Source: Aminobacter anthyllidis (lineage in GTDB: Bacteria; Pseudomonadota; Alphaproteobacteria; Rhizobiales; Rhizobiaceae). From it: a stretch of DNA of 64,000 nt. The translations under genes were made by a program, and so were the position numbers. Under the pieces are notes generated by a model. The model worked only from the letters and a program-made list of their open reading frames with translations, was not told where the DNA came from and made no database searches. Positions 33,697-48,690 of this stretch are shown here, piece after piece. Location: contig NZ_JAFLWW010000003.1 in assembly GCF_018555685.1 (NCBI RefSeq), positions 310,001-374,000 of the forward strand, given 5' to 3'. Numbering within the stretch: the first letter of the stretch is position 1; each line of letters begins with the position of its first letter.

Positions 33697-34269
33697 TCAC
33701 ATCCCCTGCGGGCCGCGGTTCATCGCCGCCACGCCGGTGCGGCAGACTTCGACCAGGCCGAGCGGCTTCATGATCGCGATGAACTGCTCGATCTTCGACA
33801 CCTTGCCGGTCAGCTCGAAGATGAAGTGTTCGGTGTTGGCGTCGATCACCTTGGCGCGGAACGCGTCGGCGAGGCGCAGCGCCTCGACGCGGGCGTCGCC
33901 CGTACCCGAAACCTTGACCAGCGCCAGTTCGCGCTCCAGCGCGCCACCAGTACCCAGTTCCTGCGCCATGACGGTCAGGTCGACGACGCGGTGCACCGGC
34001 ACGATGCGCTCGAGCTGGTGCTTGATCTGCTCGAGCACATGCGGTGTGCCGCGCGTCACGATGGTGATGCGCGACAGATGCTTTTCATGCTCGGTTTCCG
34101 AGACGGTCAGGCTTTCAATGTTGTAGCCGCGGCCGGAAAACAGGCCGATGACACGGGCAAGCACGCCCGGTTCGTTGTCGACAAGCACCGATAGCGTGTG
34201 GTTTTCCGGCTTCTCGGTTTCCTTGGCGATAAAATAGGCCGAACCGGTGGGTTGTAGCTGTGCGTTCAT
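33697..34269 (-). CDS. ilvN: Acetolactate synthase small (regulatory) subunit IlvN/IlvH
   Basis: Regulatory subunit of 190 residues. The N-terminal ACT domain is HTLSVLVDNEPGVLARVIGLFSGRGYNIESLTV (written here in two parts: HTLSVLVDNEPGVLARVIG and LFSGRGYNIESLTV). A second, ALS_ss_C domain follows from about residue 105. It binds valine and restores activity to IlvB. The ATG at 34269 is preferred over a longer frame. A 20-bp perfect palindrome (33679-33698) spans the stop codon and may help end the transcript. ilvB lies 76 bases upstream. Confidence 0.93.
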   Translation of the reverse strand: MNAQLQPTGSAYFIAKETEKPENHTLSVLVDNEPGVLARVIGLFSGRGYNIESLTVSETEHEKHLSRITIVTRGTPHVLEQIKHQLERIVPVHRVVDLTVMAQELGTGGALERELALVKVSGTGDARVEALRLADAFRAKVIDANTEHFIFELTGKVSKIEQFIAIMKPLGLVEVCRTGVAAMNRGPQGM

Positions 34270-34345
34270 AAGATGATTCTCGATCTCAGGCGGTTGCGCC
34301 AACTCGTTGATTGTGCGGCCTTGCATGAAGGCCGCACGCGATCCG

Positions 34346-36130
34346 TCACACCAGTTCGCGGCCCCTGGCGTCGATGGCGTTGGCCACCGCCTCGTCGGTC
34401 GCCTCGTCCGGCAGCAGCATCTCGTTATGCGCCTTGCCCGAGGGGATCATCGGGAAGCAGTTGGCGAGCGTTGCCACGCGGCAATCGAAGATCACCGGCT
34501 TCTTCACCGAGATCATCTCCTTGATCGCATCGTCGAGCTCGTCGGGCTTGTCGCAGCGGATGCCATGGCCGCCATAGGCCTCCGCCAGCTTGACGAAGTC
34601 GGGCATCGCCTCGGTGTAGGAATGCGACAGCCGGTTGCCGTGCAGCAGCTGCTGCCACTGGCGCACCATGCCCATGTACTGGTTGTTCAGGATGAAGACC
34701 TTGATCGGCGCATCATATTGCACGGCACAGCTCATCTCCTGGATGCACATCTGCACCGAGGCGTCGCCGGCAATGTCGATGACCAGAGATTCAGGATGCG
34801 CGATCTGCACGCCGAGTGCTGCCGGCAGCCCGTAGCCCATGGTGCCGAGGCCACCCGAGGTCATCCAGCGGTTCGGCTTTTCGAAGCCGTAATGCTGTGC
34901 CGCCCACATCTGGTGCTGGCCGACCTCGGTCGTGATGTAGGTGTCGAGGTGCCTGGTCAGTTCATAGAGACGCTGCACCGCATATTGCGGCATGATCACG
35001 TCGCTGTTGTGCTTGTAGGCGAAGCTGTCGCGGGCACGCCACTTGGCGATCTGCTCCCACCACGGATACAGCGTCTTCTTGTCGGCCTTGGCGGTCGCCC
35101 GCCACAGCCGCACCATGTCCTCGAGCACGCGGCCGACATCGCCCAGGATCGGCACGTCGGCACGCACGTTCTTGTTGATCGACGACGGATCGATGTCGAT
35201 GTGGATCTTCTTCGAGTTCGGCGAGAACGCGTTCAGGCGGCCGGTGATGCGGTCGTCGAAGCGCGCGCCGATGCAGACCATGACGTCACAGTCATGCATC
35301 GCCATGTTGGCTTCGTAGCTGCCGTGCATGCCCAGCATGCCGAGCCAGTTCTTGCCCGACTTGGGATAGGCACCCAGGCCCATCAGCGTCGAAGTGATCG
35401 GAAAGCCGGTCAGGTCGACGAGTTCGCGCAGCAGCTGGCTCGCCTCTGGACCGGAATTCACCACGCCACCGCCGGAATAGAGGACAGGGCGCTTGGCGCT
35501 CGCCATCAGCGCCACCGCTTCCTTGATCTTGTCCAGGTCGCCCTGGATCTTCGGCTGGTAGGAGGTGCGCGGCGCGGTCTGCGGCGGCGTGTAGGTGCCC
35601 CTGGCGAACTGCACGTCCTTGGGAATGTCGACGACCACGGGACCGGGACGGCCGGTGGTCGCGACATGGAACGCCTCATGCAGGATGCGGGAGAGATCGT
35701 TGACGTCCTTCACCAGCCAGTTGTGCTTGGTGCATGGCCGGGTGATGCCAATGGTGTCGCATTCCTGGAAGGCGTCGGAGCCGATCAGCGAGGTCGGAAC
35801 CTGGCCGGTGATGCACACCAGCGGGATCGAATCCATCAGCGCGTCCTGCAGCGGCGTCACCGCATTGGTGGCACCGGGACCCGAGGTCACCAGCATCACG
35901 CCGGGCTTGCCAGTCGAGCGCGCATAACCTTCGGCGGCATGACCCGCGCCCTGCTCGTGGCGCACCAGTATGTGCTGGACGTCGTCCTGCTGGAACAGCT
36001 CGTCATAGATCGGAAGGACGGCGCCGCCGGGATAGCCGAAGAGATGCTTGACGCCATTGTCCTTCAGCGCCTGCACCACCATCTCGGCGCCGGTCATTTC
36101 GCGTCGTCCGCTATCACTATGTCCGCTCAT
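34346..36130 (-). CDS. ilvB: Acetolactate synthase large (catalytic) subunit IlvB/IlvI
   Basis: Thiamine-diphosphate enzyme of 594 residues, the first step of branched-chain amino-acid synthesis. FGYPGGAVLPIYDEL and the catalytic glutamate in RHEQGAGHAAEGYAR are in the N-terminal domain. The thiamine-diphosphate motif GDASVQMCIQEM...NNQYMGMVRQWQ is near residue 450. The ATG at 36130 (MSGHSDSGRREMTG) has GACGGG upstream. An open frame back to a TTG at 36196 abuts the attenuator and is unlikely. The region upstream holds an attenuation leader. Confidence 0.96.
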   Translation of the reverse strand: MSGHSDSGRREMTGAEMVVQALKDNGVKHLFGYPGGAVLPIYDELFQQDDVQHILVRHEQGAGHAAEGYARSTGKPGVMLVTSGPGATNAVTPLQDALMDSIPLVCITGQVPTSLIGSDAFQECDTIGITRPCTKHNWLVKDVNDLSRILHEAFHVATTGRPGPVVVDIPKDVQFARGTYTPPQTAPRTSYQPKIQGDLDKIKEAVALMASAKRPVLYSGGGVVNSGPEASQLLRELVDLTGFPITSTLMGLGAYPKSGKNWLGMLGMHGSYEANMAMHDCDVMVCIGARFDDRITGRLNAFSPNSKKIHIDIDPSSINKNVRADVPILGDVGRVLEDMVRLWRATAKADKKTLYPWWEQIAKWRARDSFAYKHNSDVIMPQYAVQRLYELTRHLDTYITTEVGQHQMWAAQHYGFEKPNRWMTSGGLGTMGYGLPAALGVQIAHPESLVIDIAGDASVQMCIQEMSCAVQYDAPIKVFILNNQYMGMVRQWQQLLHGNRLSHSYTEAMPDFVKLAEAYGGHGIRCDKPDELDDAIKEMISVKKPVIFDCRVATLANCFPMIPSGKAHNEMLLPDEATDEAVANAIDARGRELV

Positions 36131-36197
36131 CGGTCCGTCCCGTCTTTCCTTCGCCGTTCTCGGCGGTTGCTGCTCGTTTAGTCCTGTTTCGGGCAAT

Positions 36198-36277
36198 AAA
36201 AAAGGCCCCCGAGGGAGCCTTCACATTTGCGCATGGGGGATTTCGCCCGACGGTTACACCGCCTTGCCCATGCGCAA
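36198..36277 (-). terminator. ilvBN attenuator: pairing segments and intrinsic terminator
   Basis: On the minus-strand RNA, TTGCGCATGGG (36267-36277), inside the leader peptide, is perfectly complementary to CCCATGCGCAA (36227-36237). Downstream, AAGGCTCC and GGGGCCTT form an 8-bp stem with a CTCG loop (36202-36221), followed at once by six T residues (36198-36203). This terminator lies about 70 bases before the ilvB start. CCCCC (36237-36241) could also pair with the GGGGG of the terminator, one possible antiterminator. Confidence 0.85.
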
Positions 36278-36307
36278 TCCTACTACGAGAATGAGTGTCG
36301 TGTTCAT
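36254..36307 (-). CDS. ilvBN leader peptide (attenuation peptide)
   Basis: Short reading frame of 17 codons encoding MNTTLILVVGLRMGKAV. Seven of the residues are Leu, Ile or Val (LILVV, Leu11 and the final Val), the end products of the pathway, as in ilv leader peptides elsewhere. The predicted promoter places the transcript start only a few bases before the ATG, so it is probably translated nearly leaderless. Ribosome stalling on the Leu-Ile-Val codons under starvation would stop the terminator at 36198-36221 from forming. No ribosome binding site is visible. Confidence 0.85.
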   Translation of the reverse strand: MNTTLILVVGLRMGKAV

Positions 36308-36316
36308 GGGCGCGGA

Positions 36317-36345
36317 CGTTAGTGCGCGAGACGGCGCGCTGTCAA
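36317..36345 (-). promoter_or_regulatory. Promoter of the ilvBN leader transcript
   Basis: On the minus strand a consensus -35 TTGACA (36340-36345) and CTAACG (36317-36322) are separated by 17 bases. Transcription should start at about 36310-36311, three to four bases upstream of the leader ATG at 36307. Confidence 0.7.
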
Positions 36346-36495
36346 CCGGGCCGCCGCAAATTTTCCGCAGCGTCAGGCGGCGGGTCAAAAAGCTCCAATT
36401 CGAGCGTTGCGCTTAACCAACGCTACACCATCCGCCATCACCCGACCTTAACGGCATCGCGCTATTTTGTTGGTCGGAACTGGGGGATTACTGCG

Positions 36496-38328
36496 ATGTA
36501 CTCGGAACGTCAGGCTCAGGGCGGTGAAACCACCTCGCAGGAGCGGCGCGACCCCAAGCAGGACGATGCCCGCATCCTGGGCCACGTCGTGCAGTGCGAT
36601 GGCGCTCGCGCGGTCATCAGCGCCTATGCCGAAAGTGGCATCGCGGAAGCGAGCGGCCTGTGGACCGTAGGCCGCATGATCTGCATCAATCTCGGCGAAA
36701 CCCGCACCATTGGCCTCGTTTATTCCATCGCCAAGTCGGACCGCTCATGGAGCAGCGAAGGCGACAACCCCATCGAGGTCAATGTCGAGCTGATCGGCGA
36801 GGTCCGTGACGTCGGCGCCGACAAGCACCCTGTCTTCGACCGTGGCATCACCGCCTATCCCTATATCGGCGCCATCGCCCACCGTATCCGCAGCCGCGAC
36901 CTCCAGGCGGTCTACGACCTTGCCGGCCGCCGCACCGTCACCATCGGCCAGCTGTCGCAGGACGACACCATCGACGCCTGCATCGCCATCGACGAAACCC
37001 TTGCCCGCCACTTCGCCGTCGTCGGCACCACCGGCGTCGGCAAGTCGACCGCCGTATCGCTTCTGCTGCGCAAGGCGATCGCCGCGCGGCCCGACCTGCG
37101 CGTGCTGATCATGGATCCGCACAACGAGTTCGCGGCATCGCTGCCGGAACATTGCGTCAAGGTCGACAGCAATTCGCTCGACCTGCCGTTCTGGCTGTTC
37201 CGCCTTGAGGAATTCTCCGAAGTGCTGTTTCGCGGCCGCGAGACCGATGCCGACGAGATCGACGTGCTGCGCGATCTCATCCCGGCCGCCAAGAACCTCT
37301 ACCGCAGCCCGCAAGGTGGCACCTTCCTGCGCCGCGGTGTCGACGCGCTGACCGCGGATACGCCTGTGCCCTACCGCATGGCCGACCTGATCAAGCAGAT
37401 CGACGAACGCATGGGCCTGCTCGAATCGAAGAACGAGCGGCCGATCCTGAAATCGCTGCGCACCCGCATCGAGTCCGCGCTGGCCGATCCGCGCTACCGC
37501 TTCATGTTCCATTCGCGCCTGATCGAGGACACCATCCACGAAACCATCGGCAACATCTTCCGCGTGCCGACGCATGGCCGCCCGGTCACCTGTTTCGAGA
37601 TGGCCGGCATGCCCTCGGAGGTCGTCAATTCGGTCTGCTCGGTGCTCGCCCGCCTTGCCTTTGATCTGGCGCTGTGGAGCGAAGGCCGCCTCAAGCTGCT
37701 TCTGCTGTGCGAGGAAGCGCACCGCTACATGCCCGCCGACCACCGCCTCGGCTTCGCGCCGACCCGCCACGCGCTGTCGCGCATCGCCAAGGAAGGCCGC
37801 AAATATGGCTGCTACCTCGGCGTCGTCACCCAGCGCCCGGGTGAGCTCGACCCGACAATCCTGTCGCAATGCTCGACGGTCTTCGCCATGCGCCTCGCCA
37901 ACGAGCAGGACCAGGCGATCATCCGCTCGGCCATCGCCGATTCCTCCGCTTCGACCTTGTCGTTCCTGTCATCCATGGGCCAGCGTGAAGCAATCGCCTT
38001 CGGCGAGGGCGTCGCCACCACCATGCGGCTGAAGTTCGAAAAGCTCTCGGACGAGCTCATCCCCGGCACCGGCAAGCGCGCCGCGGAGGCACCGACAGGC
38101 AGTGGCGACGACGTCGATCTGGTCGCCATCGTCGAGCGCCTGCGCAACGTTCCCAAGCCGCAGGCCGCAGCCCTCGGCTTTGCCGAAGTCGTCGATGTCC
38201 AGCGCCAGGCCGGCGACACCGACTATCGCAAGCCGGCGACAGCTCCAAGGCCGCAGCCCGACGACGATTTCGACACCCGCTTCGGCCTGCGCCCCTCGAC
38301 CTTCGGTGGCCGCCCGCCGCAGGGCTGA
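36496..38328 (+). CDS. HerA/DUF87-type ATPase
   Basis: Protein of 610 residues of the HerA-FtsK superfamily. An N-terminal HAS-barrel-like region (about 25-150) is followed by Walker A GTTGVGKST at residues 177-185, MDPHNEFAAS, Walker B LLLLCEEAHRY near residue 400, and SRIAKEGRKYGCYLGVVTQR with sensor and arginine-finger residues. The C-terminal tail (about 570-610) is Pro- and Arg-rich. HerA normally works with the nuclease NurA on DNA ends; none is encoded here. GGGGGA stands upstream of the ATG at 36496. It is divergent from the ilvBN leader. Confidence 0.85.
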   Translation: MYSERQAQGGETTSQERRDPKQDDARILGHVVQCDGARAVISAYAESGIAEASGLWTVGRMICINLGETRTIGLVYSIAKSDRSWSSEGDNPIEVNVELIGEVRDVGADKHPVFDRGITAYPYIGAIAHRIRSRDLQAVYDLAGRRTVTIGQLSQDDTIDACIAIDETLARHFAVVGTTGVGKSTAVSLLLRKAIAARPDLRVLIMDPHNEFAASLPEHCVKVDSNSLDLPFWLFRLEEFSEVLFRGRETDADEIDVLRDLIPAAKNLYRSPQGGTFLRRGVDALTADTPVPYRMADLIKQIDERMGLLESKNERPILKSLRTRIESALADPRYRFMFHSRLIEDTIHETIGNIFRVPTHGRPVTCFEMAGMPSEVVNSVCSVLARLAFDLALWSEGRLKLLLLCEEAHRYMPADHRLGFAPTRHALSRIAKEGRKYGCYLGVVTQRPGELDPTILSQCSTVFAMRLANEQDQAIIRSAIADSSASTLSFLSSMGQREAIAFGEGVATTMRLKFEKLSDELIPGTGKRAAEAPTGSGDDVDLVAIVERLRNVPKPQAAALGFAEVVDVQRQAGDTDYRKPATAPRPQPDDDFDTRFGLRPSTFGGRPPQG

Positions 38329-48139: not shown

Positions 48140-48357
48140 GTGAAATTCCCCTCGTCGACGAATTGATCTCATCCCGTGGGGATTGCCGGCCTTGACCGGT
48201 TCTCGCGCAATGCAGGCACCCCAGCGGCCGAAGCTTCGGTTCGCGCAACGCGCGAGTCAACCCTGCGAGTTCGCGTGGTCTCATAAATCTGTTGCGAATG
48301 GCGGCTAAGACTTGCTGTTCCGACCTTTCCTTTTGCTCCCGGCCTCCTTATATCTGG

Positions 48358-48690
48358 AGCGTCAGCTTGTCTGACTATGGCGATAAACTGCCGATGAAAT
48401 AAGCCATTCGGACCCGGGGGCGGTACCCGGCGCCTCCACCAAAAGCTGCCGTGCAGTCGAGCGACGGTTTTTGCTGGGGGCGAAATAGGATCGACGAGGG
48501 TGTAAAGATCGGACTTTTGCCCGGCATAGTACCACCGTTATCGGGCTAAACTTGTAGTTGCAAACGACAACTATGCGGAAGCACGTCTCGCAGCGTAAGC
48601 TGTGCGATAGCTTCAAATTAAGCCCTAGGGGTTCGCACTTCTAGGCGGGGTTCGGAGGTACCTGGCAACAGAAACCTCCACTTCTCTCCC
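48358..48690 (+). ncRNA. ssrA: Split, circularly permuted transfer-messenger RNA (tmRNA)
   Basis: The acceptor piece comes first and ends at CCA (48439-48441), after CGCCTCCA and a T-arm-like stem CCGGG/CCCGG. An internal spacer follows, then the coding piece starts at 48476 with GGGGGCG, which pairs with CGCCTCC of the acceptor piece and gives G3-U70, the alanine identity pair. The tag frame starts at the GCA at 48560 and reads ANDNYAEARLAA before TAA (48596-48598), as in other Rhizobiales. Outer ends are approximate. It rescues stalled ribosomes and tags their products for ClpXP. Confidence 0.93.

Follow-up and report, generated by a model that had tools for sequence, protein, structure and literature searches.

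The DNA upstream of ilvB in Aminobacter anthyllidis raises the question of whether the gene is governed by its own leader and, if so, how a short reading frame, two stems and a terminator would work together. We examined this in a window of 64,000 nucleotides (contig NZ_JAFLWW010000003.1, positions 310,001 to 374,000), which is the whole stretch of DNA analysed. In our view, the leader is very probably a ribosome-mediated transcription attenuator of ilvBN and a member of the Atu_C8 RNA family. The features concerned are the following.

36317..36345, minus strand: sigma-70-like promoter, TTGACA (36345-36340), N17, CTAACG (36322-36317)
36254..36307, minus strand: leader peptide uORF MNTTLILVVGLRMGKAV, 17 codons and stop, ATG at 36307, stop at 36256-36254, probably leaderless
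36281..36295, minus strand: control codons CTC ATT CTC GTA GTA (L5 I6 L7 V8 V9), used in the core-codon counts
36267..36277, minus strand: 5' arm of stem P1, UUGCGCAUGGG, within the uORF, identified with covariation
36227..36237, minus strand: 3' arm of stem P1, CCCAUGCGCAA, identified with covariation
36249..36263, minus strand: P2 hairpin, GGCGGU-GUA-ACCGUC, with the stop codon starting in the loop; 7 of 7 pairs changed on both sides in alignment A1
36198..36222, minus strand: intrinsic terminator, stem 36222-36201, with U6 at 36203-36198
36187..36308, minus strand: match to Rfam RF02502 Atu_C8, model positions 1-122 of 122, 98.6 bits, cut-off 50
34346..36130, minus strand: ilvB, acetolactate synthase large subunit, with TPP enzyme N, M and C domains
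33697..34326, minus strand: reading frame downstream of ilvB, start approximate, which from its position and sequence features we take to be ilvN (small subunit)

A preliminary description of this DNA had reported the promoter, the 17-codon frame rich in Leu, Ile and Val, the 11-bp pairing and the terminator with its T6 run before ilvB, and all of these were confirmed in the sequence. Seven of the 17 residues of MNTTLILVVGLRMGKAV are I, L or V. In P1, UUGCGCAUGGG (36277-36267) pairs with CCCAUGCGCAA (36237-36227) at 11 of 11 positions. The terminator sits between the uORF and ilvB, its end 67 bases before the ilvB ATG (36130). The leader folds better than its shuffles (z of -2.85; 1 of 200 equally good). 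The -10 element is weak; inspection allows an alternative register, TAACGT at N18, and a consensus promoter scan missed the promoter, giving instead another 9-of-12 site at 36388-36360. This site was set aside since it has a counterpart in just 2 of the 111 leader matches, among which the window's own stretch is present twice (L001 and L022). The region 36345-36496 that carries the ilv promoter is common to a divergent gene, with an in-frame ATG at 36496 and a reading frame ending at 38328, which by its sequence features is presumably a HerA-like ATPase.

A cmscan of the window gave five matches, the one at the ilvB leader being to RF02502 over the full-length model and well above the curated cut-off; the genome contains a single RF02502 match. 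Phe_leader (RF01859; E 0.19, 22 bits against a cut-off of 55) and ctRNA_p42d (RF00489; E 0.1, 19.5 bits against 50) were considered at the leader and rejected as too weak. The window also holds an alphaproteobacterial tmRNA at 48322-48682 (RF01849, 305.7 bits). Atu_C8 reportedly originates from Wilms, 2012. The leader has the same stems and terminator as the Rfam family, but the Rfam line describes a Rhizobiales sRNA and mentions neither a uORF nor ilvB. A literature search from which most subscription papers were absent found none linking Atu_C8 to ilvB or to an exporter, which is weak evidence of novelty.

Matches to RF02502 at E <= 0.001 occur in 47 of 61 relatives (the window's genome counted). 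At this threshold the window's family yields 290 matching genomes out of 297, of which 283 exceed the cut-off, and the order 161 out of 297, of which 49 exceed it; in the class, 6 of 289 genomes match. One of these six is the window's own genome and another is of the same order; the four outside the order include one strong match, which precedes an exporter gene. The searches over 40 genomes had stricter filters and lost weak matches. The seven family genomes with no RF02502 match are 1.2-2.0 Mb in size, and five of them have no intact close IlvB: a search of G662 and G678 gave no IlvB match, G633 has a short fragment, G200 has pieces with stops and G014 has a 28% identical relative. In the other two, G750 and G807, IlvB is present at about 70% identity and no leader was detected, which counts against our interpretation. 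IlvB was present in 7 of 7 leader-bearing genomes compared, most of them small.

Using nhmmer, we found the leader in 80 of 80 loci chosen by IlvB alone (the best 80 of 593) and in 111 of 111 loci overall, L042 being matched in part. These loci, L001-L111, comprise 31 taken by kinship (window's genome or family) and the 80 chosen for their IlvB similarity, whose titles mostly name Rhizobiaceae or related genera. The window's IlvB is 96-97% identical to its best Aminobacter matches, A. niigataensis and A. carboxidus, and two genomes of the window's genus have leaders identical to those of these two species over 135 nt (L016/L032 and L025/L062). In L042 (1525-1589), which is a short MAG contig, the uORF continues directly into the 3' half of the terminator and the hairpin region is missing, perhaps through an assembly error. 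A chance ORF beside a chance hairpin is ruled out by homology (98.6 bits; 80 of 80 loci) and covariation; against chance, homology is stronger evidence than the fold z-score.

Further afield, 57 of the 62 listed leaders precede ilvB. This list was drawn from 80 matches, ten being omitted as already in the first set and eight further matches lying outside it (L121, L122, L130, L132, L133, L136, L137 and L157). Forty stretches were fetched, selected for spread over families and including some second copies; L209 was dropped as a probable false match (22-30 bits, no IlvB or exporter adjoining). We note tandem ilvB-like genes in L150 (G296) and L201/L207 (G259); they lie about 2.7 kb apart, and every one has an Atu_C8-like leader of its own. 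A second ilvB follows the Atu_C8 copies in L187, L189 and L191 and both copies in L150.

The almost leaderless peptide had been called unusual, a view that the relatives do not bear out. Among the 107 distinct sequences of loci L001-L111, TTGAC lies 35-38 bases before the ATG in every one (1.5% in shuffles), TA as the start of the -10 element follows at a spacer of 17 (64 sequences), 18 (42) or 16 (one), and position -1 is C in 99. Shine-Dalgarno-like motifs occur in 3 of the 107, against 10.9 in shuffles. The promoter spacing thus places the ATG where transcription should begin, its A being the nearest usual purine. We infer from this spacing that transcription begins at the AUG or no more than about three bases from it; the A of the ATG would be as likely a first base as one 3-4 bases earlier, or likelier. 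Among close relatives the leaderless layout appears to be the rule. Leaderless mRNAs are widespread in the Alphaproteobacteria, with 171 reported in S. meliloti and 375 in Caulobacter. Of 50 ilvB leaders from other families (49 loci; one leader, L143, is from another order), nine have the TTGAC spacing, 27 a Shine-Dalgarno-like motif, two both and 16 neither; shuffles of these leaders gave a mean of 6.7 such motifs and a maximum of 13 in 200. The mode of initiation thus seems to vary from lineage to lineage, with the RNA body preserved.

In the ilvBN and leu attenuators of E. coli, the control codons are those of the pathway's products and show a strong synonymous bias, and the same is found here. 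Over 106 leaders, with five core codons in each, 482 of the 530 core codons encode I, L or V. The core Val codons (n = 222) are GTA 93, GTG 111, GTC 5 and GTT 13, the Leu codons (n = 132) CTC 69, CTT 62, CTA 1 and CTG 0, and the Ile codons ATT 82 and ATC 46. By comparison, 78 ilvB genes use GTA for 1.5%, GTG for 28% and GTC for 57% of Val, CTG for 58%, CTC for 29% and CTT for 6% of Leu, and ATT for 14% of Ile. The window's ilvB has GTA at none of its 45 Val codons; its leader has GTA GTA. In 48 leaders of other families, not counting L125 and L178 as apparent wrong start picks, GTA makes up 61 of 88 Val codons and CTC with CTT 61 of 68 Leu codons. GUC and CUG, which the ilvB genes prefer, are therefore avoided in the control codons. 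Picks of the uORF took the frame nearest the homologous place, one set also requiring at least four I/L/V, and so are not on their own proof of the frame. Among the 47 tRNA genes found in the genome there are one tRNA-Val(UAC) and one tRNA-Leu(GAG); tRNA-Ile(GAU) is absent from these 47, and the assembly is therefore probably missing some tRNA genes. For attenuators in general, selective charging may account for codon choice better than rarity alone does (PMC1183508).

The preliminary description had also suggested comparing relatives for conserved codons and covarying stems, and both were found. In alignment A1, made with MAFFT, 13 of 26 stem pairs changed on both sides, a count that 0 of 500 shuffles reached; slid controls gave 2-6 such pairs and 27-48% pairing, against 96.6% in the true register. 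In A2 (80 matches) 22 of 26 pairs changed on both sides, 7 of the 9 P1 pairs show compensatory changes, and the top 13 scores of a covariation scan all fall within P1, P2 or the terminator. Unlike A1, A2 was fitted to the structure of the model, so its results lean towards that structure. The shuffles ignore relatedness, and the counts are therefore not probabilities. On these alignments we regard P1, P2 and the terminator as covarying elements. The residues after Val-Val vary with P1 (RMG, RTR, RTT, RAA, RVA and others): in L028 and L031 RMG becomes RTR with compensatory changes in P1, and in 18 of 105 leaders Met becomes Val as an A-U pair becomes G-U.

This bears on the possibility that Atu_C8 is mainly a trans-acting RNA, or the source of a trans-acting peptide, with attenuation secondary; the preliminary description had suggested, by analogy with Sinorhizobium, that the RNA and peptide could also act in trans. 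The S. meliloti reports (PMC7298713, PMC10117765) describe a trpL RNA (rnTrpL) and peptide (peTrpL) that act in trans; there, a leaderless uORF is part of an attenuator from which a small RNA is produced as well. The layout here is similarly leaderless, and Rfam files RF02502 as an sRNA gene. In contrast to our leader, trpL has Trp codons and precedes trpE(G), and it is for trpL that action in trans has been shown. The peptide tail, as judged from the alignments, seems to follow the RNA pairing, and its conservation can be put down to that pairing, which weakens the case for a trans-acting peptide without excluding it and lends it no support. With 57 of the 62 listed leaders preceding ilvB as well, we consider a mainly trans-acting role very unlikely.

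The preliminary description had recognized the standard layout of end-product attenuation, and ribosome-mediated attenuation of ilvBN is well supported by the uORF, control codons, stem, terminator and conserved place before ilvB; the RF02502 match also speaks for it. Such control has precedents in the class: Corbino (2005), citing Vitreschak (2004), states that a leader peptide had been described for an alphaproteobacterial ilvB (PMC1273637), and an ilv leader of Caulobacter, which has tandem Ile and Val codons as well as a terminator, is put forward as an attenuator (PMC4117421). As described, both resemble the present leader in having a leader peptide before ilvB or ilvBN.

The proposed course of events would be as follows. 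RNA polymerase would start at the AUG itself or up to about three bases away, and the uORF would be translated as a leaderless message. With Leu, Ile and Val tRNAs charged, the ribosome would reach the UAA and cover the 5' arm of P1; the terminator would then stop transcription, leaving an RNA of about 110 nt that would be the Atu_C8 small RNA. Uncharged tRNA-Leu(GAG), tRNA-Ile or tRNA-Val(UAC) would stall the ribosome at codons 5-8, P1 would form ahead of it, as modelled below, and polymerase would read through into ilvB.

To follow P1, the ribosome was placed codon by codon on the window's leader in a fold model. The probability of P1 with the A site at codons 5, 6, 7, 8 and 9 was 0.93, 0.93, 0.85, 0.59 and 0.00; it was 0.85-0.93 over codons 4-7 and 0.00 from V9 onward. 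P1 would thus be a read-out of ribosome position. The V9 stall speaks against our scheme, as it blocks P1 in the model though Val-Val is among the most constant features. The terminator probability was 0.91-0.95 at every modelled position, and with 0-84 nt masked from the 5' end its mean stayed at 0.86-0.94 in 105 close leaders (the scan was run without L042, which has no usable T-run region) and 62 further leaders, single leaders being lower. Masking and ribosome placement thus gave no equilibrium switch in the window or in the means of these 105 and 62 leaders.

The preliminary description had left the antiterminator unresolved by eye, and our searches in the window's branch have not established one either: masking, cut RNA, arm swapping and covariation found none that shares bases with the terminator, in which the leader is unlike the E. 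coli ilvBN and leu attenuators. An arm-swap test for an upstream partner of the terminator 5' arm found none specific (own -7.05 kcal/mol against -7.18 kcal/mol for swapped; 955 of 1000 permutations did as well), and for the 3' arm 518 of 1000 permutations were as good, against 0 of 1000 for the positive control. The A2 scan gave no covarying alternative helix; a two-pair antiterminator candidate (columns 32-45 and 33-44) was rejected as weak, resting on near-invariant bases. P1 and the terminator share no bases in the window's branch, and they are separated by 5-9 nt in 105 of 105 A1 rows with letters there and by 3-9 nt in A2.

In six distant leaders (L143, L208, L215, L216, L217 and L220) P1 abuts the terminator, and these were folded under masks. 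Masking the P1 5' arm raised the terminator probability from 0.74-0.81 to 0.98 in L143 (1499-1623) and from 0.35-0.61 to 0.96-0.98 in L208 (1488-1612). For L217 the increase was from 0 to no more than 0.72, a doubtful case because the unmasked fold keeps a hairpin, shorter and in a different register, ahead of the U run. In L215 and L216 it stayed at 0.92-0.99, and in L220 it dipped to 0.77 and then recovered. P1 may therefore compete with the terminator in some distant leaders (L143 and L208), unlike in the window's branch; that P1 itself opposes the terminator is suggested in silico for leaders in which the two abut and is not established for the window's branch.

Two other readings of P1 have to be weighed. 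P1 could be an anti-antiterminator, which a stall at the control codons would break, freeing its 3' arm or neighbouring bases for a putative antiterminator. The loss of P1 with the ribosome at V9 would fit this, as would the lack of shared bases in the window's branch. When the RNA was cut after the terminator 5' arm, mean pairing of that arm was 0.21 at mask 33 and 0.44 at mask 42, where the P1 5' arm is masked, with 7 and 32 of 105 leaders, respectively, above 0.5; this weak rise fits an anti-antiterminator better than P1 as antiterminator. However, no mask brings the rise to more than 35 of 105 leaders, much longer masks give an equally high value, neither a covarying alternative helix nor an arm-specific partner was found, P1 is wholly or partly formed with stalls at codons 5-8, and P1 competes with the terminator in L143 and L208. 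We regard this role as unlikely. Alternatively, coupling of translation to transcription might alone set read-through, P1 and P2 serving RNA stability or polymerase pausing, in keeping with a terminator whose formation is insensitive to upstream folding at equilibrium. The compensatory changes in P1, its place where a terminating ribosome would cover it and its distance of 5-9 nt from the terminator throughout A1 argue against this account, to which we give little credence. On the strength of the ribosome-position modelling and the competition in distant leaders, we favour P1 as an antiterminator-side structure, with modest confidence; attenuation as such is much surer than this assignment.

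Some genomes have a second copy of the leader, and not all copies precede ilvB. Ten RF02502 matches over the cut-off, in ten genomes (65.7-107.9 bits), are each followed by an MFS gene: L123, L124, L141, L185 (same stretch in L194), L186, L188, L202, L204, L205 and L206. L141 is from another order and is the only listed match of that genome; L185 is from the window's genus. Four of the ten MFS proteins were scanned, and the best NCBIfam match was TIGR00710 Bcr/CflA in all four, over the cut-off in two; the other six were identified by similarity to these. Val-Val before P1 and TTGAC at the leaderless spacing are present in 10 of 10 of these leaders. Of 30 loci fetched by MFS similarity, six have a leader match (E <= 1) before the gene and 24 do not; among the six, L210 equals L123, L219 equals L186, and L217, L220, L215 and L216 are weak (E 0.075 for L215 and 0.4 for L216). 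No leader match at E <= 1 precedes the gene in L211, a 61% identical relative, and the link between leader and MFS gene is not general. L208 is a further weak leader match (30.5 bits). In L203 (1139-1273), at the end of a contig, an Atu_C8 leader (105.3 bits with model R1, 99.8 with RF02502) immediately precedes a gene that resembles an ABC exporter; this gene is below every NCBIfam cut-off shown. A tentative reading, which we think possible and would not yet favour, is that Atu_C8 is a transferable stall-sensing cassette, in which slow decoding of isoacceptor-specific Val codons (through amino-acid shortage, perhaps through translation inhibitors) opens pumps and P1 serves as a position read-out with no bases shared with the terminator.

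The interpretation of the ilvB leader as an attenuator gives Atu_C8, a catalogued small RNA, a clear setting, and the codon bias yields a sharp prediction of which tRNAs are sensed. The missing antiterminator and the exporter copies are the parts of most specialist interest. The RNA family also provides a natural series, since a single attenuator body occurs in leaderless form in some bacterial families and, it appears, behind a Shine-Dalgarno sequence in others. If the cassette reading is true, a leaderless uORF with Val-Val, P1, P2 and a terminator would have been placed before pumps (Bcr/CflA-like MFS and, once, ABC) in several families.
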